Below are positions 22,979-37,360 of a stretch of DNA of 64,000 nt, piece after piece. The number at the start of each line of letters is the position of its first letter. The stretch's first letter is position 1. The stretch is taken from contig CM021323.1 of NCBI GenBank assembly GCA_010645155.1, forward strand, positions 6,476,580 to 6,540,579, read 5' to 3'. The translations under genes and the position numbers were made by a program. The notes below the pieces were generated by a model, which was not told the origin of the DNA, ran no database searches, and was given only the letters and a program-made list of their open reading frames with translations. The DNA is from Tigriopus japonicus (lineage: Eukaryota; Arthropoda; Copepoda; Harpacticoida; Harpacticidae).

Positions 22979-24702
22979 ATGACCCAAAACAATGAGACAG
23001 ACACGTTTCTGGAAAACAGTCAGAATCCCAAAGTGAGGATAGTGGAAAATGGAAGTGGAACCGAGGATGGGGAGTCTCACAATCGGGAGAGGAAGTCTCG
23101 ATTTGCTTGCACTTGGAAGTGTGGATTGATTTCCGGTGGGGTTGTGCTCGTTCTAGTGGTGGCTATCTTGGGCATGGGATATTATCGATATGTCAGCAAA
23201 TTAACCGGTAAAGCAACCTCGGAAAACAGTGCTGAATGGGAGAAGAAACTGAGTGGAAATGCAAATCTCGGAAATAACACCGACATTACCGGAATGTGAG
23301 TGTCAATCCCAAACCTTGGAGGTAGTCCTTCTTAATGATATTTGGAGGTGGCAAAAAATGTTAAATGACGTTTGCAATGTTTCAACATTTTTTGTATCTT
23401 TTAAAGTTTATTGAATTCAAGATAAAGGGGAAACGTTCTTAGTTATCGCCATACTCAAGGTCAGATTGCAATTTTCCTGTTTCCTCTTGTTTCGGCTTAA
23501 CCGACCTGTCAACTTTTTTATCGTTGATTAGCTAGCTTAAATTTTTAAATCATTAAGCACTTGACACCGTCTATAACTTTTGCTGATAAAATTTGCTGCA
23601 AAAATAGTATCTCTGACACTTGCTAAAGTATTTCGTGCTCAAAGCATCAAGGCCACAATCGGTCTCTCAAATCAACCACCCAAAAAGTTTTTCCTTCTAG
23701 TGTCAAAAATTTGTCAATATCTTCTATTTTGCGAACAGTTTAAAAATGTTTTCAGTTGGTAATATTTGTTACTGTACTTCACTCGCTTAACTTTTGGATA
23801 ATTTCAAGTTTAGTGATATTAACACATAATGCAATGTAACAAACAACGTAACATGAGTGAACTTGCTGAAATGTGCAACATGTCAAGAGCACAAACCAAA
23901 ATAATTCCATATCAACTGAAGTTTGAATGAATTTTGACTTTTTATTTTTATGTTGTCGAAATAATGCTTCCCTGTAATGATGCAAAGATGATTTAATGAT
24001 TAAACAAAGAAAACAAATGATCGTTATGAAACTTCATGCAAATCATATTTCAGGTATGAGCTCGTGAGCTTTGACGACACCTATGATAGCTATCTTTTAG
24101 CCATGGGTACGCCCTCATTTGTATTATCGTTCGTGAAAATGTCCTCAGAAGTCTTGACCATCGTTGCGCCATCCAATCTTGAAACTGGAACCTGGAAATA
24201 TCACTTAAAAACGGGTACAAGAGAAAAATGATTGGCCTCTTAAGACGTAGATGGATTTGGTCTAATCATGTCAAGTTGCAGATACAAGACAAGACAGCTG
24301 GGAATTTCGATTAAACGAAGAGTTCTCGGTACCTTGGGGAAGAAACAAGGGTTTCCTGCATCAAATTTGCCACATGAACTCCCCGAGCGAACTTCAATGT
24401 GACAAAGAAGAACGGAAGCGTGGTTGGAAGATCACATCGATCAGCTCGTTTTCGGACCAAGGCTTTATTGAGGCACTTAACTTTACCTCCGCAGATGTGG
24501 CCACCAAGAAATATTACGAGAAGACCTCAAAAGCCAAGCTGAAAGCTAAAAAAGAGTGAGTATTTGTAATAATATCGGAATATGGATGATCTAGAAAAGT
24601 ACTCATGGTTTGTAACATTTCAGAAAAATCGCCAAGGACCCAGATGCGCCATTTTCTAGCAATACTGACCAAGACGAGGATTTCTGGGAAGATTCGTGGT
24701 GA
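22979..24702 (+). CDS. Membrane-anchored FABP-like protein 1 (type II anchor + calycin domain + acidic tail)
   Basis: Exons: 22979-23295, 24054-24214, 24282-24555, 24624-24702, total 831 nt, 276 residues. The N-terminus is hydrophilic and ends in a basic stretch (RERKSR), followed by one hydrophobic helix at about 49-69, so a type II orientation is expected. From residue 105 the pattern GMYELVSF...YLLAMG, GTWKY, FRLNEEF and DVATKKYYEK follows the order of fatty-acid-binding protein strands (GTWKL-S-NF--Y--ALG, TF, F-LGEEF, DV--TR-YEK). The usual Arg-x-Tyr ligand motif would here be Lys-x-Tyr. A Lys-rich linker and an acidic tail (DPDAPFSS...EDFWEDSW) close the protein. FABPs are normally soluble and anchorless. 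The domain assignment is an inference by eye. It is the first of three tandem paralogues. Confidence 0.7.
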
Positions 24703-24728
24703 TGATCGATGACCATGCTTAGGAGTCA

Positions 24729-24734
24729 AATAAA
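24729..24734 (+). terminator. PolyA signal of FABP-like gene 1
   Basis: AATAAA lies 26 bases after the stop codon and well before the start of the next paralogue at 24904. Confidence 0.6.
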
Positions 24735-24903
24735 GCTGTCATAAGATTATGTCAAAATGGAAAGTAACTGTAACACCATTAAAAATCGTAAACATACGTA
24801 GTGATTGCAATCTTTAGCTAATTGGATCCGAGGATTTCCACCTAATTAGGCATATTTGTATCGGGATTGAATGGGAACACCAATACAATCCAGTTGATGC
24901 AAG

Positions 24904-27900
24904 ATGGTTGAAGAGGTCACCGCCAATGGTACCAATTCAAAGTTACGGTCCACGTTTTGGCCTCCTCGTTGGTGGATGTGGTGTGTGATTGTTTTATTCG
25001 TTTTTATTGGGGCTGTTTTCATAGTGTTTAGTCTGCAACCATTTCGATCAACAGCTCCTGGGTAAGCCTTTGCTTAATATATAAGCGTATTACTAATATA
25101 TGCCTAAGGTTATTGTAATAGGTCGGTTGTTGAGGTAGTTTGGAAATATAATAGAAGCACATGACGCGCAGTGGAAATAACTTAGAAATAACCATGCTCG
25201 ATCAAGTTTCGCTACATAAGCTGTGTTTTTCAAAAGCAGTTGCGTTTTTCAATCGCAGTTTATGTAGCGAAACTTGATCGAGCATGGTTATTTCTAAGTT
25301 ATTTCCACTGCGCGTCATGTGCTTCTTTTATGCTTCAAGATGTGCTTCTAGATGTGCTTCTACTGTACGTCCAAACTACCTCAACAACTGACCTAATAAC
25401 GAATATAAAAAGCATCAAACAAGGCCAGGGGCCTGACTATCCCCTTTGACAAAATACGTCAATTAATGGAAAAGCAGGAGTTTTCCGTATTAAATCTAAG
25501 TGATAAGGAGGCACTCATTACCGGCATAAGTTAGTTGGGTTCATAATTCAAAAGGTTTCATTAAAAGTTTTCAAGGCTGTCTATCATACCGGCCTAATGG
25601 GCCCATCTGGCGAGGCAAATATCCATTCAAACTTGGTTTAGGGGCTTCGATTGACAAATTGAAGTGTGAAAAAACTGTTCAGTGCACATTCAAAAGACAA
25701 AAAAATGAAAGTTTCAACGCACTCACAGACAAATTATATCAAATTTTAAAATGAAAGTGTTGAATCAAATACTAAGCAATGCGAAACTTTGCTGTTTCTC
25801 ACTCTCTTGTGCAAACTGCTAATCAAGATAACAAACATATGATGGAGGCCTTTAGACATTTCAGTGTGCTAATCTGTAAACCTCCTGATAAGATTTTACA
25901 CTATTTTATAAAACAAGTATCATCGTTCGTCAGAAACTTTTAAACAAAAATTAGGAAATAATGGTTTGTTTTTCAACATCTAGCATTTTCTTTGCTTGGA
26001 ATTTGGAGGTTTTGATGCGCTTCACGATACTCTCACGCACAATATTTTTTATTTACAAAATCTTGGATTTATCTTTTACAATCTTAATCAATTTGCCATA
26101 AGCATTAACATCATCTGTGAAGATGTAGTCAAATAAGCCCCAAGCCCTAAGCAAGACATTTAATTTTCATCACATCATTCATTCCACATGAAATTGCTCT
26201 CCAATCATAAAACGCTTAAAATGATATTTAACCATTCCAAGTCAACACAACGATAAAAAGTATTATTTTTGCAAAGACGGAGATCTTGCAGTCAAATTAA
26301 TCTCATTTTAAGGCATAAATCATGATAAAATTGATGCTAAAAGCTACAACTTTATCTAATCCATTCGTTATTTATTAATAGGGCCGGGAAATAATTTTTT
26401 TTAAATATAGAATATTTTAAAAATATTTATCCGTTTTTCGTCGATTTTTTAATTTTTTTGGCTTTTTCAAGGAAAAAAATAAATATATTCTCGAAAATTT
26501 GAGTCAGAAAAAATGTTTCAGGCAAAATTGAGCATAATAAACGAACGACCAAAGCTCAATTTCAAAGCCCCCCCCACTCTTTTGTTACTTTCTTACTTAT
26601 TTTCACGAACTTCCTGAGGTAGCCGTGTCATGTACCCTTTTGGGATTTTCGGCTTCCTATGAGGGCTGATTGATGAATGTTTTTAACCCAAGATGTAAAA
26701 AATGTATGAATAGTCCTATCCTGTCCTTATGAAATAAAATACTTATTTACTTACTTAATAGGGCTTACCAAAATGAATCCAAAATACAAAACCCTTTACA
26801 AAAAAGCACCATCTATTGAGGCAAATTGAAAATTGTATATTTGAATCAATTCTAATATGAGTCCAAAAAGGGCCAAATGCATCAAATTCACCAATAACGA
26901 ATTTGGAAAATCGGTGCACACAGACAAAGATATCAAATAATAGCCGTTTCTAAAAAAAAATTCCTAAAAATCCGGCTGTTTTCCAAATATTTTGGCCTTT
27001 TGAAGAAAATATGTATTGGATATTTTGGCCTTTTGAAGAAAATATGTATTGGATATTTTGGCCTTTTGAAGAAAATATGTATTGGATATTTTGGCATTTT
27101 GAAGAAAATATGTATAGGATATTTTGTCACTTTTTTGGAAATATTTTTCCGGGCCCTACTTATTAATAATAGATCATTATTTTGATATCAACCCACGCCT
27201 CAAATGTCTTTGAAAGCTGGAAATAACCTCTCCAGCACCAAATCAACATCGTGACACGACAGGTTTTTCCAAGTATTTCAATGTTATCAATAGATCCTAG
27301 TCTTGAATATATTTAGGCCATATGGGCACTGCCTACCGATTTTGTCAAAGATTTTAAATTTACAATTTCCTTTAAATGACTAATTTATAAACTTCTATCT
27401 CGTCCATTTTTATACGAAGTCAGCAAAGTGATTTTGACATTTTTTTCGAACGTCCATTTTCATGTTAGAACTGTGCTGAGAGTTGCTCATTTACACAAAA
27501 AACACGAATCCGCTTGAACTTGTCTCTAAACATAAGGTTGGATGAAATCTACAATGTATCAAAGTTGTTAATTTGTTGCTAAATTAAAGAGAAATAAGAT
27601 TAAACATCAAGAAAGCGGTCAAAATCTGGACTATTGGTGAATGCAAAAGACCATTTAATTAGGTTCCTCTTAAACGATGTGTAAAATAGCTTGGGCCTTG
27701 AATGAACAAAGATTAAGAAAGTAAGGGCAATGGTATCGGCCAAACATCAGTTAGTGGCAAGCAAGCAACGCTGAGACTTTTTTAGTAAATCCACTATATC
27801 AAAGATATTGATTTCATCGTTTGTTTTACATGTAAAATTTGCATAATAGAGCCCATATAGCAAATTATGCAAACTTCCCTCGTACTGTATGTTTCTAATG

Positions 27901-29512
27901 CAGGAATTACATCAATGAGGATCTATCATTTCTCAACTGATAGCTTTTTAATTATTTGTTATCTTTGTTTATGGCAAAATGTTTAGGAAAGTGATGTAGT
28001 TGCCAAAGTCAAAATATATAAAATAAAGATTTATTAAGACAGCTATTGAGAAATGTATCGAAGTTTGATGTTGATTTACCCTCGACCAAAAATACATTTC
28101 ATTAAGTATGAATCTAAAATTGCAAGTTTGCATATTCGAAATGACCTGGATCATAAAAAAAACGTTCATAAGAAATGTAGAGTGTATGTTGGTAAATACT
28201 TAGCTTGCCGCATGAACTTGTGCAGTAGTAAGTATGCTTACGTGTCAATTTCAAACCGACTTAATCAAACGCTGCTTCATAAACATTCAGGGCGTGATTC
28301 GTTAGATGATGAAAGAACATCTCTTTAGTCGATCTGACGGGTCGTGTTTTTGGAATAAAGACAGTTTACTTATCTAAGAATGTAATTTAAAAGTTCTTAC
28401 TGGACTAGATTCAAACTTTGAAAGATAAGATTGCATTCAAGATATCTGGGTCGGAATACGTTTTTCATTCATTAAAATGATAAACAAGCGTGGCTCAATC
28501 TGAATGCTTTTAAGTCTCTATACTGATAACTCTTTCCTTTGAACATGATTAGCATGATTCTTTTGAAACTTCTGTTGAGCACAATTCTGTTGAGACACTT
28601 TAGTAGGGCTAAATATCTGAAGTTTAAATGAGTCAAAACAAAATTTTAGTCGAAAAACATTACACAAATATCAATGAAAATACAGTGTGTCCCATAAAAA
28701 ATGCGAAAGGTTTCAAGATTTTTTTAGGGCAGCTTTAATCACTTTTTTACTGTTTTAAGCCTGGTGTGTAATCGTTTGACTGTATACTTTGAGATGATGT
28801 AAATAAAATAGGGGTAAAACAGTGTTGTTGAATATTTATTATTTTCCAGGATATTCGTAGAGCAGGACGACCAAAGGAGTTGGAAACAACATGATGCAGA
28901 ACAGAAAGATATTTCCAATTGCTCCAAAGCAACTTGTTTCATTCATGGACGGTAAGAATATTTTAAAAAATCCTACAGGTGTCCATCACCAATTAAGAAA
29001 AATAAATCATTAAGCACGACTTATTTAATTTTTAGATTTCAACTTCAAAGTGTAGATGCTGGCTTTTACGATTTCCTGTCCGATCTGGGCGTACCCTGGT
29101 TTGCCATCAGTATCTTGAAACGAATGTCTGAGACTATGGATCTTCTGCCACCACAAAATTTAACACATGGAACATGGCGATGGACCATTGATAGAGGTAA
29201 GTGACCACTCGTCAACTCATAACTCATGAAGCCCTTCTATCACCTAATCATAATCCAGGTGTGCAGCCAGTCTTGCTAAATTTTCGGATGGGAGAGCCCT
29301 TTCAAGTAGCCTTAGGATCATTTCTGACGTTGACCAGGAACTGTTCCCTTCCTTCAAAGAGCGTGATCGTGTGTGAGGATTCCAATGAATCGGGCGAATT
29401 GCTGGCTACAAGTACCAATCGATTTACGTTGGAAGGACTCACCAATGCAATTTTTATGGAGAGTCGAAATATCACTGCGGTAAAATATTACCAACGTATG
29501 GTAAAGAGTTGA
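24904..29512 (+). CDS. Membrane-anchored FABP-like protein 2
   Basis: Exons: 24904-25061, 28850-28951, 29036-29196, 29259-29512, total 675 nt, 224 residues. A short Trp-rich N-terminus precedes a hydrophobic helix at about 26-43. A stalk (54-87) encoded by its own exon contains two Cys (CSKATC). The FABP-like domain begins at residue 88 (FQLQSVDAGFYDFLSDLGVPWF), continues with GTWRWTI and LNFRMGEPF, and ends in AVKYYQRMVKS. Unlike its neighbours it has no acidic tail. The introns flanking the first domain exon have the same phases (2 then 1) and the exon has the same 161-base length as in gene 1. Several N-glycosylation sequons (NLT, NCS, NES, NIT) lie in the domain, consistent with a lumenal or extracellular position. 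Intron 1 is 3.8 kb and carries several transposon relics. Confidence 0.66.
25115..25400. mobile_element. Fold-back (hairpin) MITE in intron 1 of FABP-like gene 2
   Basis: Bases 25153-25219 and 25260-25326 form an apparently perfect 67-base inverted repeat around a 40-base loop. Outside it, GGTCGGTTGTTGAGGTAGTT (25121-25140) is matched in reverse complement, with one mismatch, by the stretch at about 25374-25395. The whole block can fold into one long hairpin and encodes nothing. Confidence 0.75.
26380..27159. mobile_element. hAT-like MITE with internal minisatellite
   Basis: The ends read AGGGCCGGGAAATA and, reverse complemented at the right, GTAGGGCCCGGAAAAATA. The flanks share TTATTAAT (26372-26379 and 27160-27167), an 8-bp duplication as expected for hAT. 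The interior is strongly AT-rich with no transposase. End sequence and TSD length resemble the element at 5613-6133. Confidence 0.7.
26987..27128. repeat. 33-bp minisatellite, four full copies plus a partial one
   Basis: A 33-base unit beginning ATATTTTGGCCTTTTGAAG repeats at 26987, 27020, 27053 and 27086, with a partial fifth at 27119. The first three copies are nearly identical; the fourth has two substitutions. It lies in the right part of the hAT-like element. Because the unit is 11 codons, it leaves open frames on both strands, which I do not regard as coding. Confidence 0.85.
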
Positions 29513-30305
29513 ATTGATGTGCGGTTTGAATTATAAAATTGATTAATTTAAAAATCACTTTACCGCCTTGTGGTTTCTTTGTTATATATTTTCTTCGAGA
29601 CCACCTCAAATTTATGGTGCCGGTAGAGTCACAATTTTTTCTTTAATTCATAGTCCGGCAAGTTGGTGAACTTAGCCCAAAATCACCCTAAAATAAAACT
29701 ACCGAGTGTTTCAAAAGAAACAGAATATCTAATCCTATCGTTTACAAATCGTGACTGAAACCGTATGTGAACCTCACCTTTCATGGAAATGACTTGGATT
29801 GAGGAGCCAGAAAAAATAATTTTACCCAATTTAAGCGACGACGATTTTTCCCGCTAGGGGTCATTTCTGAAAACTGCTGTGACTCTGACTTTTTCTCCTT
29901 CCCGGAATTTGGCTAAAATCGAAAATAAGGCAACATAATAAAGGAAATAAAACCATTTGTATCTTAAGAATTATTATCCGCCACATCATTTTGAGTTTCA
30001 AACATTTTTGTGAAATTGACCACTTCTGAGTTACGGACATAGTCCATCCTGTTCCATTTCTTATGGATCACCCGATAAAGTTACCCTTTCTAACAAACTT
30101 TTCGCTCTGTCTATCGATGTATGACTGTTCTTGGCTCTCATTTTGCCAACAATCTCGTAACAGTTTAGAAGGAAATATGTTCAAAACTCAAATATTAGTC
30201 AACTCAATTGATAACTTATCAGTTACTGTCGTGGAAGACAAATGTTAAGGTCGACTAGTCTGAATACTTTTTTGCACAATTTACAACTATTTTGAAGTAT
30301 TCATT
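29513..30305 (+). other. Spacer between FABP-like genes 2 and 3
   Basis: About 0.8 kb of AT-rich DNA lies between the stop of gene 2 and the ATG of gene 3. I see no gene and no clear polyA signal. Confidence 0.4.
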
Positions 30306-31532
30306 ATGGCTAATAATAACCGACATAATAACCAATACGATAACCCCCAAGGAAAAAGCAAATCCTGTTGCAATTGGCGGTGCTTTTGTATCACTTGCTG
30401 TCTGTTTGTGCTGATTGTGATTGGTATCGGTGTTGGGATCTATTTTGTTCTCAATGGCATGGGATATTTCAATGAAAACAAGCCCATCGTAGACAATGGT
30501 GAATGGGACCAAAAGCTGACACAAGGCTTCGGAAAGTCAGATACTTCTTTTGGTTTTAAAGACATATCCGGCGAGTGAGTGTGGTTTTGCAATTTCTTGA
30601 GAGTTCATTGTTACGTTTCTTTTCAATTCAACATAGATATCAGCTAGTTAGCTTCAATGAGGAGTTTAAATCTTTCCTAACGGCCATGGGAATCCCTCCT
30701 TTCGTTTTGCCAATTATTTTGAGTGTCACGGAAACCCTAAACATCACAGCCTCTCCGGAAGGCAAATGGTCAATAACAAGAGACATGGGCAAGTAAATTT
30801 TCCTAAATAAATATACGTTTTTGTTCGTCAAGGCATGCTTCAAGCACATTACAAGAACTGGTTTAAAGGATATGTTAACCTGATCTAGGCATTCCTTCAC
30901 TGAATTTTTGTATTTTTTGTAGAATCAAGCTAAACGCTGAAACCAGAAGTTTGCTTGAATAATGCTTCTACGTACACGTAACAGATTGTATTTGAAACGA
31001 ACGCGGACGTTTTCAAGTCATTTGTCATTTTAGGTTTTATGAAGAAAACTAACGATTTCAAACTGGAAGAAGAATTTACAGTGGAGTGGGGCAGAAATGA
31101 TGGCATAATGCACAGTACTTGTAACTTTAAAATAGACGAACACACATTGGTCTGCGATTCGGAAGAAAAGGTCAAAGGTTGGCATTTTGAAGATAAGATG
31201 ATCTTTTCCAAGCTGGGCATGATAAACGAAAAGTATTTCAAAGAGGAGGATATTCGGGCCAAAAAATATTATGAGAAAGTGGGCGTGCCTCACGGAAAAT
31301 TTTCGAGGTATGTTCTGCATGCAGTTACCAAGATTTTCAATGTGATTGTTGTTTCTGATGGCTTGATAAAACATGTTCTAGCTCTGTTGGTGAGGGAATG
31401 CACCAAATCAAGGAACAGCCAGATGAGGATTCACCATTTTCAAGTAATGAGGATTCGCCATTTTCATTGGATGATGATCCACCATTTTTTGATGACGAGG
31501 ATGGACTATTTTCGGATGATGAAGATGATTAA
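30306..31532 (+). CDS. Membrane-anchored FABP-like protein 3
   Basis: Exons: 30306-30574, 30637-30788, 31034-31307, 31382-31532, total 846 nt, 281 residues. An Asn-rich N-terminus leads to a Cys cluster (SCCNWRCFCITCC) immediately before or inside a hydrophobic helix at about 30-50; this could be palmitoylated. The FABP-like domain starts at residue 90 (EYQLVSFNEEFKSFLTAMG) and includes KWSITRD, FKLEEEFTVEWGRND and ADIR-type AKKYYEKV. Exon 3 is 274 bases, exactly as in gene 1. The tail repeats Asp/Glu-rich SPFS units and ends in DDEDD. The second intron appears to use a GC donor (GG|GCAAGT, 30789). The only nearby GT donor would cause an early stop, while the GC site keeps the paralogues' phase 1. 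Confidence 0.7.
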
Positions 31533-32928
31533 TCCTTTCTTAGACAATACTTTGGCAATATTTTTCTTTAGCTTACTCTAAAGAAAGTGGCTCGAGGCTA
31601 GAAATATATGATATTCCTTTTAAAGGTAAAGAAAAGACTTGGGAGTTTATGATCTATTAAAGGACAAAAAACACGAAAACTCTTTTCAAAGCAGTAGTTA
31701 TTTGTGTAGAAACGTCAACAAAGTTCTAAAAGCACTAAACGCACTTTTTGATACATTTGGTTTCGTTTCCTAATGTCCTCTCTTGGTGAAATCAATCAAT
31801 CCCTGAGGCGTTTCTAACCTCGTTGGACAAACCTATCAAATGTTTCCTGTCTCAGCAAAATTTTAACTCTTGAGGTTCCTTCAGACAGGTATCCAACACT
31901 TGCACATTTTCAGACTAGTTCAAATTGTTGGCTCAACCAACTTCATTTTAAGATGTCTTGGTTTTGACGGAGGATCCACTCCCGTTTGAGAACTTCTGTT
32001 CTAGAGGATGGAAAAATGCACACAATTTCTCATTTTCAAATTAAAGGCCATCGGCGGTCCATTAAAGAGGGACACTCTCTTCGGAGTGGAACGAGGATTT
32101 ATGTTCTTAGAGCATCGTAAAAAATGAAAGTTTACTTCCCGTCCTCGAAAACAATAGCGACAGTAAAGGGTTTCATTCAAAGGAGTGGGTGGTCGCGCAA
32201 ATAACACTGGTGGTAAATGAGTTAAATTAATCAATTCACTTGACATTAAACTTATTGTGATTTCAAAACCTTGAAATTGACAAGTAGTTCAGATTTAATC
32301 CCAATGAAGCGTGGTCTTTGATATCAGAAAAGGTCATAGGTTGGTCGATTCCTTTTGACACAACATGCTCTCTTGCACAAGTAAAAATGCCTAACCTTGT
32401 AAGTTAGTAAGAAACTAACCACATAATTTGCCATTTTAAAGATACCTTGCAAACTTAAATGAACAAACATGGTTTCTCATTTCGATCACATGTTTTTGCT
32501 TTTTTTTAAATTAAGGAGTCAGTACGTACAAAACATAACGTACATAATGGGTGTTCCGTATTCCTGTTCATTGAAGAAGTGTTCCCTGGACATCCTAGGT
32601 TTGAGTGCTACTGTAGGCACCTAAAAAATTAAAATGCTTGTTGTTGAGCCTCTTTGGAAAATATGTTGATCAAAGCATTCCATACGAGATGAACATGTTC
32701 ATATTGATGTTCTGAAAAAAGTGATGCTGGAACCTGTTCCCTAGTACCAAGCTGTTTATGTTGCATGACATTTAACGGAGGCTAAAAGTACCTCAAATAG
32801 CACCGGCTTTCCCTTCAGTTCGGAATAAGAACAGGAGAGTCCCAAGATGTTGGAATTTAGCCAAGATGCGAATTGTAAACTCATCCTCGAGGCTGTAAGT
32901 GACACTTCAGCCGATTTTGCAACACAAT
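31533..32928. other. Intergenic region before the Kelch gene
   Basis: About 1.4 kb holds only short open frames with no domain. The Kelch promoter should lie in the right part. Confidence 0.4.
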
Positions 32929-34602
32929 ATGATCGAATCAATATTTCGCGACCAACTAACTTTACGAAGTACCCATTGCTCCAAAGACGTTCTGGCCACG
33001 TTCAACCGTCTCCGAAATGAGAATCTCTTCACTGACACAACTCTCAAAGTTGGAGATCTGGTCCTTCGGGTCCATAGAATCATCTTATGTGCCTGTTCTC
33101 CCTACTTTGACAAGATGCTCACTTCAAACTTCCGAGAACAAAGTTATGAAGTGATTGAATTGCCCCATTTGAGCTCAGAGGCGGTCGACAAGCTCATCAC
33201 CTTTTTTTACACTGGATTCCTTAAAGTGGATCACGAAAGCGTCTACGACGTATTCGCCTGTGCCGATATCCTGCTCTTGGATGAGACCAAGAAGTGTCTG
33301 GTGCGATTTCTGCAGCAAACTCTCAATTTGGAGAACGCTGTGGCTGTTTGCCATATCGGAAAGATCTACTCGATTCTAGAACTTAGTCAAAGCGCAGAGC
33401 GGTTTTTGGCGCGAAATTTCAACGACCTCTTGGCAACGGAAAGTTTCACAGATCTGACGTACGAAGAACTGACGTCAATTTTGAGGGACCACTCGCCATA
33501 TGTGGAATCTGAGGATATGCTCTTAAATGCCTTGATTAATTGGTCCATGATTAACCTGAGAGAGGATCTCATAATGTCCTTGGTGTCTTGCGTGAACATG
33601 GAAGCCGTCAGTGAAGAGTGTCTCAACCATTTAGCTTTAACCGGGCAAACGGAATTGGTGGCAGATCTGAGGAACTCCAATCTGAACCCTGCCATTTCAC
33701 AACCGCTTCTCCGTCGAAAACAGCGGGTCAATTCTTTGATATTGGCAATAGCATTCGATAGTAAGCTTCTGGAATGCCTGGACTTGGAACATTTTGATCA
33801 GGGATGGCATGTCCTCACTGAGGTTCCGAACATGCGGTATGGTTTTAGTGGGGCGGGTATTTCAACTTTCGGTGATAAAGTCCTCATCACGGGCGGGGTG
33901 GGGAAAAAGGGCATACTAAAGGCAGTGAACCGGTTCGTCGTGTATGACTTAAGGTCAAATTCCTGGTCGGATGGGCCCACTCTAAAAGAGCCCAGGAAAT
34001 GTCACCTCCAGGGGGTCACACAAGGGTCGTTGATGATCGCCGGAGGTACCGACGAACAGCAAGCCGTTCTCACCGCGCAGTACTTAGATCTAAAGCAAGA
34101 TCCGGCCCAATGGTCTTGGCTGGAACTCCCTGCCCTACCTTCTTGGCACAATGGCACAAGTCTCATAGAATTTGGACAACATCTTATAGCCATTTCTAAT
34201 TATGGCAGTGACAGCGATCGCATGTTTAATTTACGATCCAAGATCTGGAGCAATCTACCCTTGGAGACGGCCGATTCTTGTCGAATGACCCGTGATCGCC
34301 CAGGATGCACTAAGTTTGGCGATATCCTAATTTTGGCTGGTGGAAGTTCAGGTCGAGATCTGTGCAAAGAGGTGGAAAGTTATAGTTTGGAAACGGCATC
34401 GTGGGAGAAACATTCCAAATTGAACATTGGTCGGGAGTGTCCTGGAATGGCGGTCATTCAAGGGCGAATGTTTGCCATTGGCGGAAAAGGTAGCAATGGA
34501 ACGGTGGAAGAATACAGTCCCGAAGCTGGAACTTGGCACGTTGTGCCCGATATGAAAGTGAAGTTTCAAAACGGAGAATACTTTTGTGCAATCATTTCGT
34601 GA
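32929..34602 (+). CDS. Intronless BTB-BACK-Kelch protein (KLHL-type CUL3 adaptor)
   Basis: A single exon encodes 557 residues. The start at ATG 32929 was chosen because the upstream in-frame codons have no ATG. The BTB domain spans about 24-130 (FTDTTLKVGDLVLRVHRIILCACSPYFDKML, then FYTGFLKVD), the BACK domain about 135-245, and degenerate Kelch blades about 300-557, with recognisable VLITGG, MIAGG, LILAGGSS and MFAIGGKG turns and paired Trp. Such proteins bind CUL3 through BTB and present substrates for ubiquitylation through the propeller. I cannot name the orthologue. Lack of introns in a window where almost every gene has them could mean origin by retroposition. The stop codon is 49 bases from the convergent PRMT3 stop. 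Confidence 0.88.
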   Translation: MIESIFRDQLTLRSTHCSKDVLATFNRLRNENLFTDTTLKVGDLVLRVHRIILCACSPYFDKMLTSNFREQSYEVIELPHLSSEAVDKLITFFYTGFLKVDHESVYDVFACADILLLDETKKCLVRFLQQTLNLENAVAVCHIGKIYSILELSQSAERFLARNFNDLLATESFTDLTYEELTSILRDHSPYVESEDMLLNALINWSMINLREDLIMSLVSCVNMEAVSEECLNHLALTGQTELVADLRNSNLNPAISQPLLRRKQRVNSLILAIAFDSKLLECLDLEHFDQGWHVLTEVPNMRYGFSGAGISTFGDKVLITGGVGKKGILKAVNRFVVYDLRSNSWSDGPTLKEPRKCHLQGVTQGSLMIAGGTDEQQAVLTAQYLDLKQDPAQWSWLELPALPSWHNGTSLIEFGQHLIAISNYGSDSDRMFNLRSKIWSNLPLETADSCRMTRDRPGCTKFGDILILAGGSSGRDLCKEVESYSLETASWEKHSKLNIGRECPGMAVIQGRMFAIGGKGSNGTVEEYSPEAGTWHVVPDMKVKFQNGEYFCAIIS

Positions 34603-34651: not shown

Positions 34652-37360
34652 TTATTCAACCGTGAACATCTGTTCACGATCTGCAAGTGTGAGCTTGACG
34701 TGCAAACTTCTGATGTCATTGCTTGGACGGGTCACCTTCATACAACCGTTTAAGACCTGGCCCTTTTTAACCACCATTTTTTCCTTTAAATAGAACAAGG
34801 TTTGCTTCCAATGAGTGGGTGTGCCATGGGGACCTGTGGTGAACATGACGGGTTCATCGTCCAAATCGAAAAAGGAATCAAAGTAACCCGCTACTGCGGT
34901 CAATTCACAATCGCGCAAGATCTTCATTTCGAAATTAGATTCAAATTCCGTATCCACCACTTCACAGGTTGCTAGATCAAGTTCGTGAATAAGGGCTGGT
35001 TCGGAGGCGACGAATTCGTTCTTCACCACTTCAACCGACCCTTCCACGACCACTGGGTCTTTCATGCAACTCATCTTAAATCCATACACATCTCGCCAAT
35101 ATTCCACGGTCTCACTATATCGCTGAGAATCGGATACTCCCACTAAATGCATTGTACATCGATTGGGCATCACTTTGCCGCCTTTCCGAAGATACTTGTT
35201 CCGAGCCATGATTACGGAATCGAGCATCCCTTCAAAGAGTAAAAAGTATCCCATCCATTCCGATACTATGACGTCGAATTGAGCGTCACCCAACGAAGCT
35301 TCTTCCAGTTTGCCCTTGATCAATCGGATCTGTTGGTCCAAGCCATTCTCGTGGACAATCTCCATGGCTTGATGTACGATATCCGACATATCTACTCCGA
35401 TAACACTTTTGGCTCCGGCTCGAGCGCAAAACATGGACAAGATTCCGGTGCCACACCCCAAATCGAGCACATCCTTGTCTTGAATATTAGAGCGAGCATT
35501 TTTCTCAATGGCATCGCGATAAGCTTCAGTGCGAATTCGATCGGATAACATTTCGTGATGGATGCCAAAATGAGCGTAGCTTCCGGCATAAGAATCGTCG
35601 TGGGTTCGTTGGTCCGAATGGGCGTGATCGGGGGCGGGAAGGTCCCCTTGAACCAAAGTCTGGGCCATGACTTTCATCTTGTCCATGGCTTGGAGCATTT
35701 CTTGCACGCGTTCTTCTTTTTCTCGCAAGGCCAAGGCCAGGGTTTCGTGGGCCTTGAGAAATTGGCACCAATCCTGCGGTTTAAACGAGACAACATCTGA
35801 GGTGCATTGGACGGGTTGAGGCACGGAGGATTCGAGTCGAGTTTGAGCTTGAAAATCACCGACTAATCCGGGCATAGACTCATCTTCATCTTCTACGTCT
35901 TCGAAGTCCATCATGAGCAACGGATCATCCTTGAGGACCTAGACGAGGACGCGTTTGCATTAAATTATGGATAAATAGAGAACCAATCTTCGTATTTAAG
36001 GGGAGAATTTCGGTGAAAGGCACCTAACCAAATAAGGGATACCCTAACCCGACTTGAAAATTCAATTGAATACGAGTAATAAATCATTTTTATTCCTCTG
36101 TGAAGTCGGATTACAACGATGCTTCCAAATCAAGACTCGTGAATAGAATGAATTCGTGAGCGGAATAAAAACTGTTGGATAATCCGTTTAAAGAGATATC
36201 ATTAAAATTAATGCAAATCAAACTGATTTCACGGACATCAAAAAAACCGGTTGGGCTAGCAATCAATAAGAATATAAACTACTTAAAAGTTGACTTAAAT
36301 GTTTCAGATACAAAAAAGCTTTGCTTGAGCCAAGAAGCACTGGAATCATGGAGTGAGAGGCTAGCAATGAGAATAATGATTTCCAGTAGGAACAATTCAA
36401 TTACGTTCTTCTGCAAATGAGACCTTCCATATGTTCACAAAAATACGTATTTCAATTTTCAGCTCAATCGAACGTCGGAGTCAAAAGTTATGCTCACTCA
36501 AAGTTCAGTGCAAATTCTGCCGAGAAAGAATGAACTAGCCCTTTTGTGGTAATCGTTTTACTACAAAAGGGCGAGTTCATTCATTCTATGCTCAATTCAG
36601 TACATAAGTTTGAGAAGGCATAACTTTTCACTCGGACATTCGATTGGGCTGAAATTTGAAATACGTGTTATTCTCAATGCAAGCCAGGTCTCACTTGCAG
36701 AAGAACGCAAATGGTTCGTTTCTGCTGGAAATCATAATTCTCATTGCTAGCCTCCCACTCCATGATTTCCGTGCTTCTTGCTTGAGCCTTTAAGAATGAT
36801 GGCGCTACAGTACATGTTATGAAGAGCAAAATCACATCTGTCTGTGTATCTGTTACAACGAAAACTTTTAAATATCGGTCAAAATGAAGTCCTTTTACAA
36901 ACAGTCAAGATCATCTCTAAGCCAGGTCCGTACGTCTTACACGCTGATGTAATGATTTTGAACCTAAATGTCTTACGGGCTTCATGAAGCGTTCTTGCCG
37001 CCAAGGTCGATCGGAAATGCGGTTCCGCAATTCCAAAACCGAAGGACGCTCGGCACGAATGAAATTGAGGCATTGAATCACTTCCAAAGGCGAATCCGTC
37101 AATTTCAATTCACGAACCCAGTCCTAAAAAGAGATAACTTTTTTTAACCAACGATAAGCCATCCAGGATTAAGTAGGAATCGATAGAACTGGACCGACCT
37201 TGAGATCGAATTGATGGTTCTCTTTCATGTAATTCAAACAAGCTTCAGTTGAAGGCGACACATGATCGGAAAACAAATCGACACAAGGTTGACGACCGAA
37301 TGTCTCGTCCAGACCTTCCAATTCATCCCATTGATCGCTGTCACCGCCCGAATCGCTCAT
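34652..37360 (-). CDS. PRMT3: Protein arginine N-methyltransferase 3
   Basis: Exons on the minus strand: 37360-37199, 37123-36977, 35938-34652, total 1596 nt, 531 residues, the same length as I recall for human PRMT3. The start is ATG 37360 (MSDSGGDSDQWDELEG), matching the acidic N-terminus of the family. After the finger-like region (PCVDLF...CLNYMKENHQFDLK) the second exon gives the family-specific LNFIR...RFMKPVLKDDPLLM segment. The SAM-binding motif VLDLGCGTG is at 260-268, the double-E loop SEWMGYFLLFEGML at about 329-342, and the THW loop at 478-480, so the catalytic core looks intact. PRMT3 makes asymmetric dimethylarginine, classically on ribosomal protein RPS2, in the cytosol. The zinc finger lacks its second Cys. 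Intron 2 (1038 bases) contains a palindromic repeat. Confidence 0.95.
36328..36785. mobile_element. Palindromic repeat element in PRMT3 intron 2
   Basis: Two arms of about 220 bases are imperfect reverse complements, meeting at about 36545-36567 (AGCCCTTTTGTGGTA versus TACAAAAGGGCGAGTT). Examples of matching arm segments are ATCATGGAGTGAGAGGCTAG at the left and, reverse complemented, ATCATGGAGTGGGAGGCTAG at the right. A related half-copy lies at 51614-51818. No protein is encoded. Confidence 0.7.

Follow-up and report, generated by a model that had tools for sequence, protein, structure and literature searches.

The intracellular lipid-binding proteins (FABP, CRABP and CRBP), which include the locust muscle fatty-acid-binding protein (FABP; 1ftp) and squid ReP1-NCXSQ (3ppt), are built on a ten-strand barrel with a pair of helices after the first strand. 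In PMC6646235 the intracellular FABPs are described as cytosolic proteins of ~15 kDa that lack a leader, and FABP-family proteins as lacking a secretory signal peptide except in the nematode nemFABPs and the tardigrade SAHS proteins, such that the view of FABPs as soluble and cytosolic, taken in a sequence-only reading of the DNA analysed here, holds for the canonical members and fails for these two secreted groups. This DNA, the window, is a stretch of 64,000 nucleotides of Tigriopus japonicus (contig CM021323.1, our contig C9, of a genome searched as 158 contigs and 194.85 Mb). Three consecutive plus-strand genes in the window (22979-24702, 24904-29512 and 30306-31532; genes 1, 2 and 3) encode proteins with a predicted barrel of the same kind preceded by a single hydrophobic segment near the N-terminus. 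Homology and fold place them in the FABP family, and their anchor sets them apart from the definition of that family. We consider it probable that they form a tandem family of FABP barrels on signal-anchors, inserted in type II orientation with the barrel in the lumen or facing outward, and that they serve as membrane-held lipid acceptors or donors.

Relative to the intracellular FABPs, the copepod proteins are extended at the N-terminal side by the anchor and a linker, and most of them also by a tail at the C-terminus. The nemFABPs (such as As-p18) and Caenorhabditis elegans LBP-3 place the FABP fold outside the cytosol, and LBP-3 (9dxi) is among our matches; the nemFABPs are secreted by means of a cleavable leader according to PMC6646235, whereas the hydrophobic segment of the copepod proteins is preceded by 22-75 residues and would probably be retained as an anchor. 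The tardigrade SAHS proteins, of which 5z4g was matched, have a secreted FABP fold and are linked to desiccation, and the text of PMC11127935 does not use the word 'transmembrane'. No anchored FABP is described in the literature titles and abstract openings that we searched, a scope that leaves aside subscription papers and preprints and is no proof of absence. Among the lipocalins, a separate calycin family with eight strands, apolipoprotein M is held in the membrane by its retained signal peptide and is an analogue in its way of working. The internal signal-anchor of the copepod family differs both from this arrangement and from the glycosylphosphatidylinositol (GPI) anchor of Lazarillo. Lazarillo is a GPI-anchored lipocalin (according to titles cited in PMC8065144) and a second working analogue, with a lipid-binding calycin barrel at the outer face of the membrane. 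With a slight preference we go further and suggest that integral-membrane FABPs with the barrel outside the cytosol occur in Tigriopus and in environmental sequences, that they represent a further export of the fold beside the nemFABPs and SAHS proteins and the first that is transmembrane-held as far as our searches extend, and that a retinal-type ligand is possible for them.

The relationship to FABPs was established with profiles. Relatives were obtained from one search (P0001-P0003), a profile search (P0005 and P0006) and a domain-profile search (P0007-P0009), and a profile (A2) was made from seven barrel domains: those of genes 1-3, of an anchored gene on contig C5, and of P0002, P0003 and P0005. 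Searched against the PDB, this profile matches squid ReP1-NCXSQ (E 2.4e-8), and all 60 matches listed, of 174, are of the FABP family; a profile limited to the domains of genes 1-3 gives 63 matches with E <= 10, the best at E 0.0028, and here too the 60 listed are all FABP-family. Scored with the seven-domain profile, two soluble FABPs encoded in this genome reach 34.4 and 30.6 bits, and the best of 10,000 shuffles of these two reaches 11.2 bits. Used as a sole query, P0002 finds a soluble FABP encoded on contig C16 (7.5e-4). At the sequence level the homology of the domain to the FABP family is statistically supported. AlphaFold models of two relatives (not of the window proteins) match solved FABPs in structure comparison and show a ten-strand barrel with a helix-turn-helix between strands 1 and 2; the hydrophobic segment is a helix in both models. 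The FABP fold first proposed from the letters is thus backed by profiles and by these models.

Some results count against this assignment. A single-sequence Pfam scan of the three window proteins and their three domains gave no lipocalin/FABP match; only one of the seven single domains matched PF00061, at E 0.0096, and another matched the unrelated ApeI-like family at E 0.0082. The barrel fold of the window proteins is, moreover, read across from the modelled relatives. The relationship is recovered by profiles of three or seven domains and missed by scans of single window sequences, and we regard the PF00061 miss as a limit of the reach of that model and not as a structural trait of the anchored family. 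With phmmer against the PDB, neither the gene 1 domain nor the gene 3 domain found an FABP. The former matched only a MIC2-associated protein (E 0.44 and 0.59) and the latter only arginine hydroxylases (E 1.7 or worse); we judged these to be chance matches. The weak Pfam matches of gene 2 (Wzz at 0.0045 and five others) are below cut-offs and lie over its hydrophobic segment, and we rejected them.

The anchor and barrel are found together in single proteins. P0007 (197 residues, on a 2,244-base contig with the source label lgn) runs unbroken from the interior of the gene 2 anchor through exons 2, 3 and 4, with three residue differences from gene 2 of the window besides its start; because gene 2 has a first intron of 3.8 kb in the genome, longer than this whole contig, the source of P0007 was presumably an RNA after splicing or else a processed gene copy. 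P0002 and P0003 (contigs of 1,270 and 1,240 bases, source label jgi) each have one frame that spans a Cys-rich N-side segment, the anchor, a linker, the barrel and an acidic tail. P0005, an annotated protein of Tigriopus californicus, carries anchor and barrel, and in the C5 gene the anchor and the first part of the barrel lie in the same exon. The partial, unspliced relatives P0006 and P0009, and P0001, which runs into an intron, were not counted for splicing. Judged from these sequences, the fusion is common to this genome, T. californicus and environmental sequences, and it is indeed present in another copepod, as had been proposed for checking. Agreement with transcripts is partial: the joining proposed from the window is seen for gene 2 in P0007, which covers that gene only, and no transcripts were found for genes 1 and 3, a point that stands against the reading. 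It could accordingly be supposed, as the window comes with no transcript data, that the gene models are artefacts in which the exons for the anchor were wrongly combined with those of a separate barrel gene, but P0007, P0002, P0003 and P0005 each hold both parts in one protein and the splice sites and frames are clean, and we consider this explanation very improbable.

The gene models were rebuilt from the DNA sequence, with splice sites located by exact patterns and the joined frames checked. All three genes have four exons. Once joined, these form an uninterrupted reading frame between ATG and stop codon, each a multiple of three bases long, and encode proteins of 276, 224 and 281 amino acids. 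In gene 1, exon 1 (22979..23295; donor GTGAGT, phase 2) encodes an N-terminal segment, the predicted transmembrane anchor (23120..23185, residues 48-69, with limits set by eye) and a linker. Exon 2 (24054..24214) encodes the first part of the FABP-like barrel and exon 3 (24282..24555) the remainder to KKYYEK and the start of the tail, both aligned with the relatives, and exon 4 (24624..24702) an acidic and aromatic tail that was aligned with the tails of P0002 and P0003. Gene 2 has a short N-terminus and anchor in exon 1 (24904..25061; anchor residues 23-44, 24970-25035), the first part of the barrel in exon 3 (29036..29196) and the rest in exon 4 (29259..29512), without an acidic tail. Its anchor and barrel are separated by an additional 102-base linker exon (28850..28951) with the Cys pair NCSKATC, and its first intron is 3,788 bases long. 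In gene 3, exon 1 (30306..30574) contains a Cys-rich segment, the anchor (residues 28-49, 30387-30452) and a linker, exon 2 (30637..30788) the first part of the barrel with a GC donor, exon 3 (31034..31307) the remaining barrel to KKYYEK and the start of the tail, and exon 4 (31382..31532) an acidic tail with the motifs DSPF and DDPPFFDD. Within this last exon a 24-base repeat (2.8 copies, 31423-31488) gives rise to the EDSPF motif that recurs in the tail.

This independent rebuild reproduces the gene coordinates of the sequence-only reading and matches its exon structure exactly. The first domain exon is 161, 161 and 152 bases in genes 1, 2 and 3, with a phase 2 intron before it and a phase 1 intron after it in all three, and the exon after it has 274 bases in gene 1 as in gene 3 (254 to the stop codon in gene 2). 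Eight of the nine introns are GT-AG, and intron 2 of gene 3 is GC-AG. Each protein has one strong hydrophobic segment, in agreement with the single N-terminal anchor first described, and the best 19-residue stretch has a mean Kyte-Doolittle value of 2.58, 2.92 and 2.86 for genes 1, 2 and 3. The string of motifs said to be shared by the three genes was overstated for gene 2, which has FQLQS...SDLG in place of LVSF...AMG, FRMGEPF in place of F-x-L-x-EEF, and ends in KYYQR. Genes 1-3 are, from their sequences, diverged tandem copies of one family.

The orientation of the proteins was addressed by comparing charges in the 15 residues on either side of the anchor (anchor limits set by eye). The difference is negative in all six proteins compared (-2 to -5), which predicts that the N-terminus is inside and the C-terminus outside. 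The hydrophobic segment starts at residues 48, 23, 28, 48, 66 and 76 in these proteins, so that with 22-75 residues before it the segment is far in for a cleaved leader and would probably remain as an anchor. The sequences lean towards type II insertion with a lumenal or extracellular barrel; the type II layout claimed earlier is favoured by the flanking charges and falls short of proof. Glycosylation sequons are a point on the other side, as there are 16 on the C-side for 10.8 expected (p 0.057, not significant overall), with the excess mainly in gene 2 (5 for 1.3 expected) and absent from gene 1, gene 3 and the gene on C5; the N-side has 4 for 3.7 expected, and we take sequon enrichment to be weak as proof of topology. 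The acidic DSPF/DPFF tail also speaks for the opposite orientation, since it resembles cytosolic adaptor-binding motifs.

Together with the cytosolic location of canonical FABPs, the weak sequon excess and these motifs (present in the tails of P0002, P0003 and gene 3) give some force to an arrangement in which the N-terminus is outside and a FABP is tethered to the cytosolic face, its tail recruiting coat adaptors. We consider this unlikely given the uniform N-inside prediction of the flanking-charge rule, the five sequons and four Cys residues on the C-side of gene 2, and the clusters of N-side Cys residues in P0002 (6), P0003 (7) and gene 3 (3), which would fit palmitoylation in the cytosol; gene 1 has one N-side Cys, and there are none in gene 2 or in the gene on C5. 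The C-side Cys count is even in all six proteins. A Cys pair is present in the hairpin of strands F and G, as C-x9-C in genes 1 and 2 and the C5 gene and as C-x10-C in gene 3, whereas P0002 and P0003 lack the second hairpin Cys and have one in the last strand, as do soluble FABP-like proteins encoded on contigs C6 and C4; a disulfide at this pair was not used as proof of topology.

In the ligand pocket of FABPs, Arg106, Arg126 and Tyr128 are the carboxylate-binding residues. At the Arg126 place, in the last strand, all eight anchored domains have Lys, followed two residues on by Tyr in six and Phe in two. The Arg106 place, unlike in the usual FABP, is neutral and lacks Arg in all eight (L, L, L, S, M, N, M and M), which counts against the proposed lipid role. 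Six soluble FABP-like genes of the same genome (C16, C6, C4, C5:8.67 Mb, C10 and C9) all keep Arg106, and five of the six have lost Arg126, the residues at that place in the soluble set being Q, Q, R, A, G and S; of the usual cation pair, the anchored proteins thus mostly retain one member and the soluble proteins the other. Engineered CRABPII entries carrying R132K:R111L are among the structure matches, and from the alignment to 2g7b we presume that CRABP Arg132 and Arg111 correspond to the Arg126 and Arg106 places. Because the Lys and the neutral residue of the anchored domains match these two positions, an aldehyde such as retinal could be considered as ligand, although this is a bold option, and a fatty-acid carboxylate would be the default and the likelier of the two. 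As in most of the copepod members, the SAHS proteins have Arg or Lys at the 126 place with Tyr two residues on, and this Arg or Lys is reported to contact the fatty-acid carboxyl group (PMC11127935).

The same paper reports that the inward-facing residues of SAHS proteins are not strongly conserved, suggesting no particular ligand (PMC11127935). Such a finding, along with the loss of one of the two usual Arg residues from all eight anchored domains and the diversity of the domains (21 to 64% identity to P0002), raises the question of whether the barrel has lost lipid binding and persists as a module that binds proteins or gives a stable scaffold, the activity residing in the tail. This we find doubtful, as the Lys is kept in all eight domains at a place where the matching Arg was lost from five of the six soluble FABPs, and as gene 2 has no tail at all.

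We therefore return to membrane-held lipid binding and propose how it might work. A complete ten-strand FABP barrel would be carried on an N-terminal signal-anchor, and type II insertion would place the barrel, and any acidic tail, in the lumen or outside. The barrel would bind a long-chain acyl-type ligand, with the invariant last-strand Lys as the cation, and would hold it by this Lys and, in most members, by the Tyr. Lipid could then be taken up and released over a short range at the membrane that holds the barrel, and a membrane-held acceptor or donor of this kind would keep the lipid carrier at one leaflet. The tail may recruit a partner, but because gene 2 lacks it, while gene 1, gene 3, P0002 and P0003 have it, it is probably not needed for the basic function.

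There are at least four anchored genes in the genome, the three in tandem in the window and the one on C5; the family further includes one annotated member in T. californicus and two full-length ones from other sources. The product of the C5 gene shares 84% of 250 aligned residues with T. californicus TCAL_07839, and its public counterpart is named only 'hypothetical protein'. Apparently soluble FABP-like genes, several seen in part, are present on C16, C6, C7, C9, C10 and C4 and at C5:8.67 Mb; for C4, C7 and C9, whose N-terminal ends are not resolved, 'soluble' means only that no anchor was seen. In a tree of eight anchored and six soluble rows (C9 being partial and C10 long-branched, and the C7 gene, with one exon seen, left out), the anchored and soluble sets separate with support of 100/100. 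Gene 3 groups with P0002, P0003 and P0008 at 82/88, below the starred level, and this sequence grouping suggests that the tandem duplications predate the divergence from the source species of those three. The phase 1 intron in the middle of the barrel falls in the same alignment column in all four anchored genes of the genome, and genes 1-3, but not the C5 gene, have a phase 2 intron ahead of the barrel; the soluble FABP genes, inspected by eye and not formally, seem to have their introns at other positions or to have none. Two of five PF00061 loci (L004 and L005) were read as lipocalins, not FABPs, and were not used.

Exported FABPs are known in the nemFABPs and SAHS proteins, and what would be new here is the fusion of a common lipid carrier to a built-in membrane anchor; an anchored, outward-facing branch, if true, would be another route by which an intracellular carrier came to handle lipids at a surface or in a lumen. 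The family easily escapes standard annotation because of the 'hypothetical protein' label and because Pfam does not recognize the window genes. Copepods are important for marine lipid transfer, and Tigriopus is kept in laboratories, making tests of localisation and ligand practical.

The long first intron of gene 2 contains two repeats. At 25116-25398 there is a near-perfect palindrome with 96-nucleotide arms that are 90% complementary and separated by a 2-nucleotide spacer. It has at least 107 matches in the genome and window, and all 40 places scored, of 886 candidates, matched; near full-length copies are ~79-87% identical, and from its sequence this is a hairpin-type repeat family. A tandem array of 4.5 copies of a 33-base unit follows at 26987-27134. 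Beside the gene cluster there are two long open frames, read by eye, one resembling a BTB-Kelch protein (32899-34602, plus strand) and the other a PRMT3-like methyltransferase (34652-35938, minus strand).
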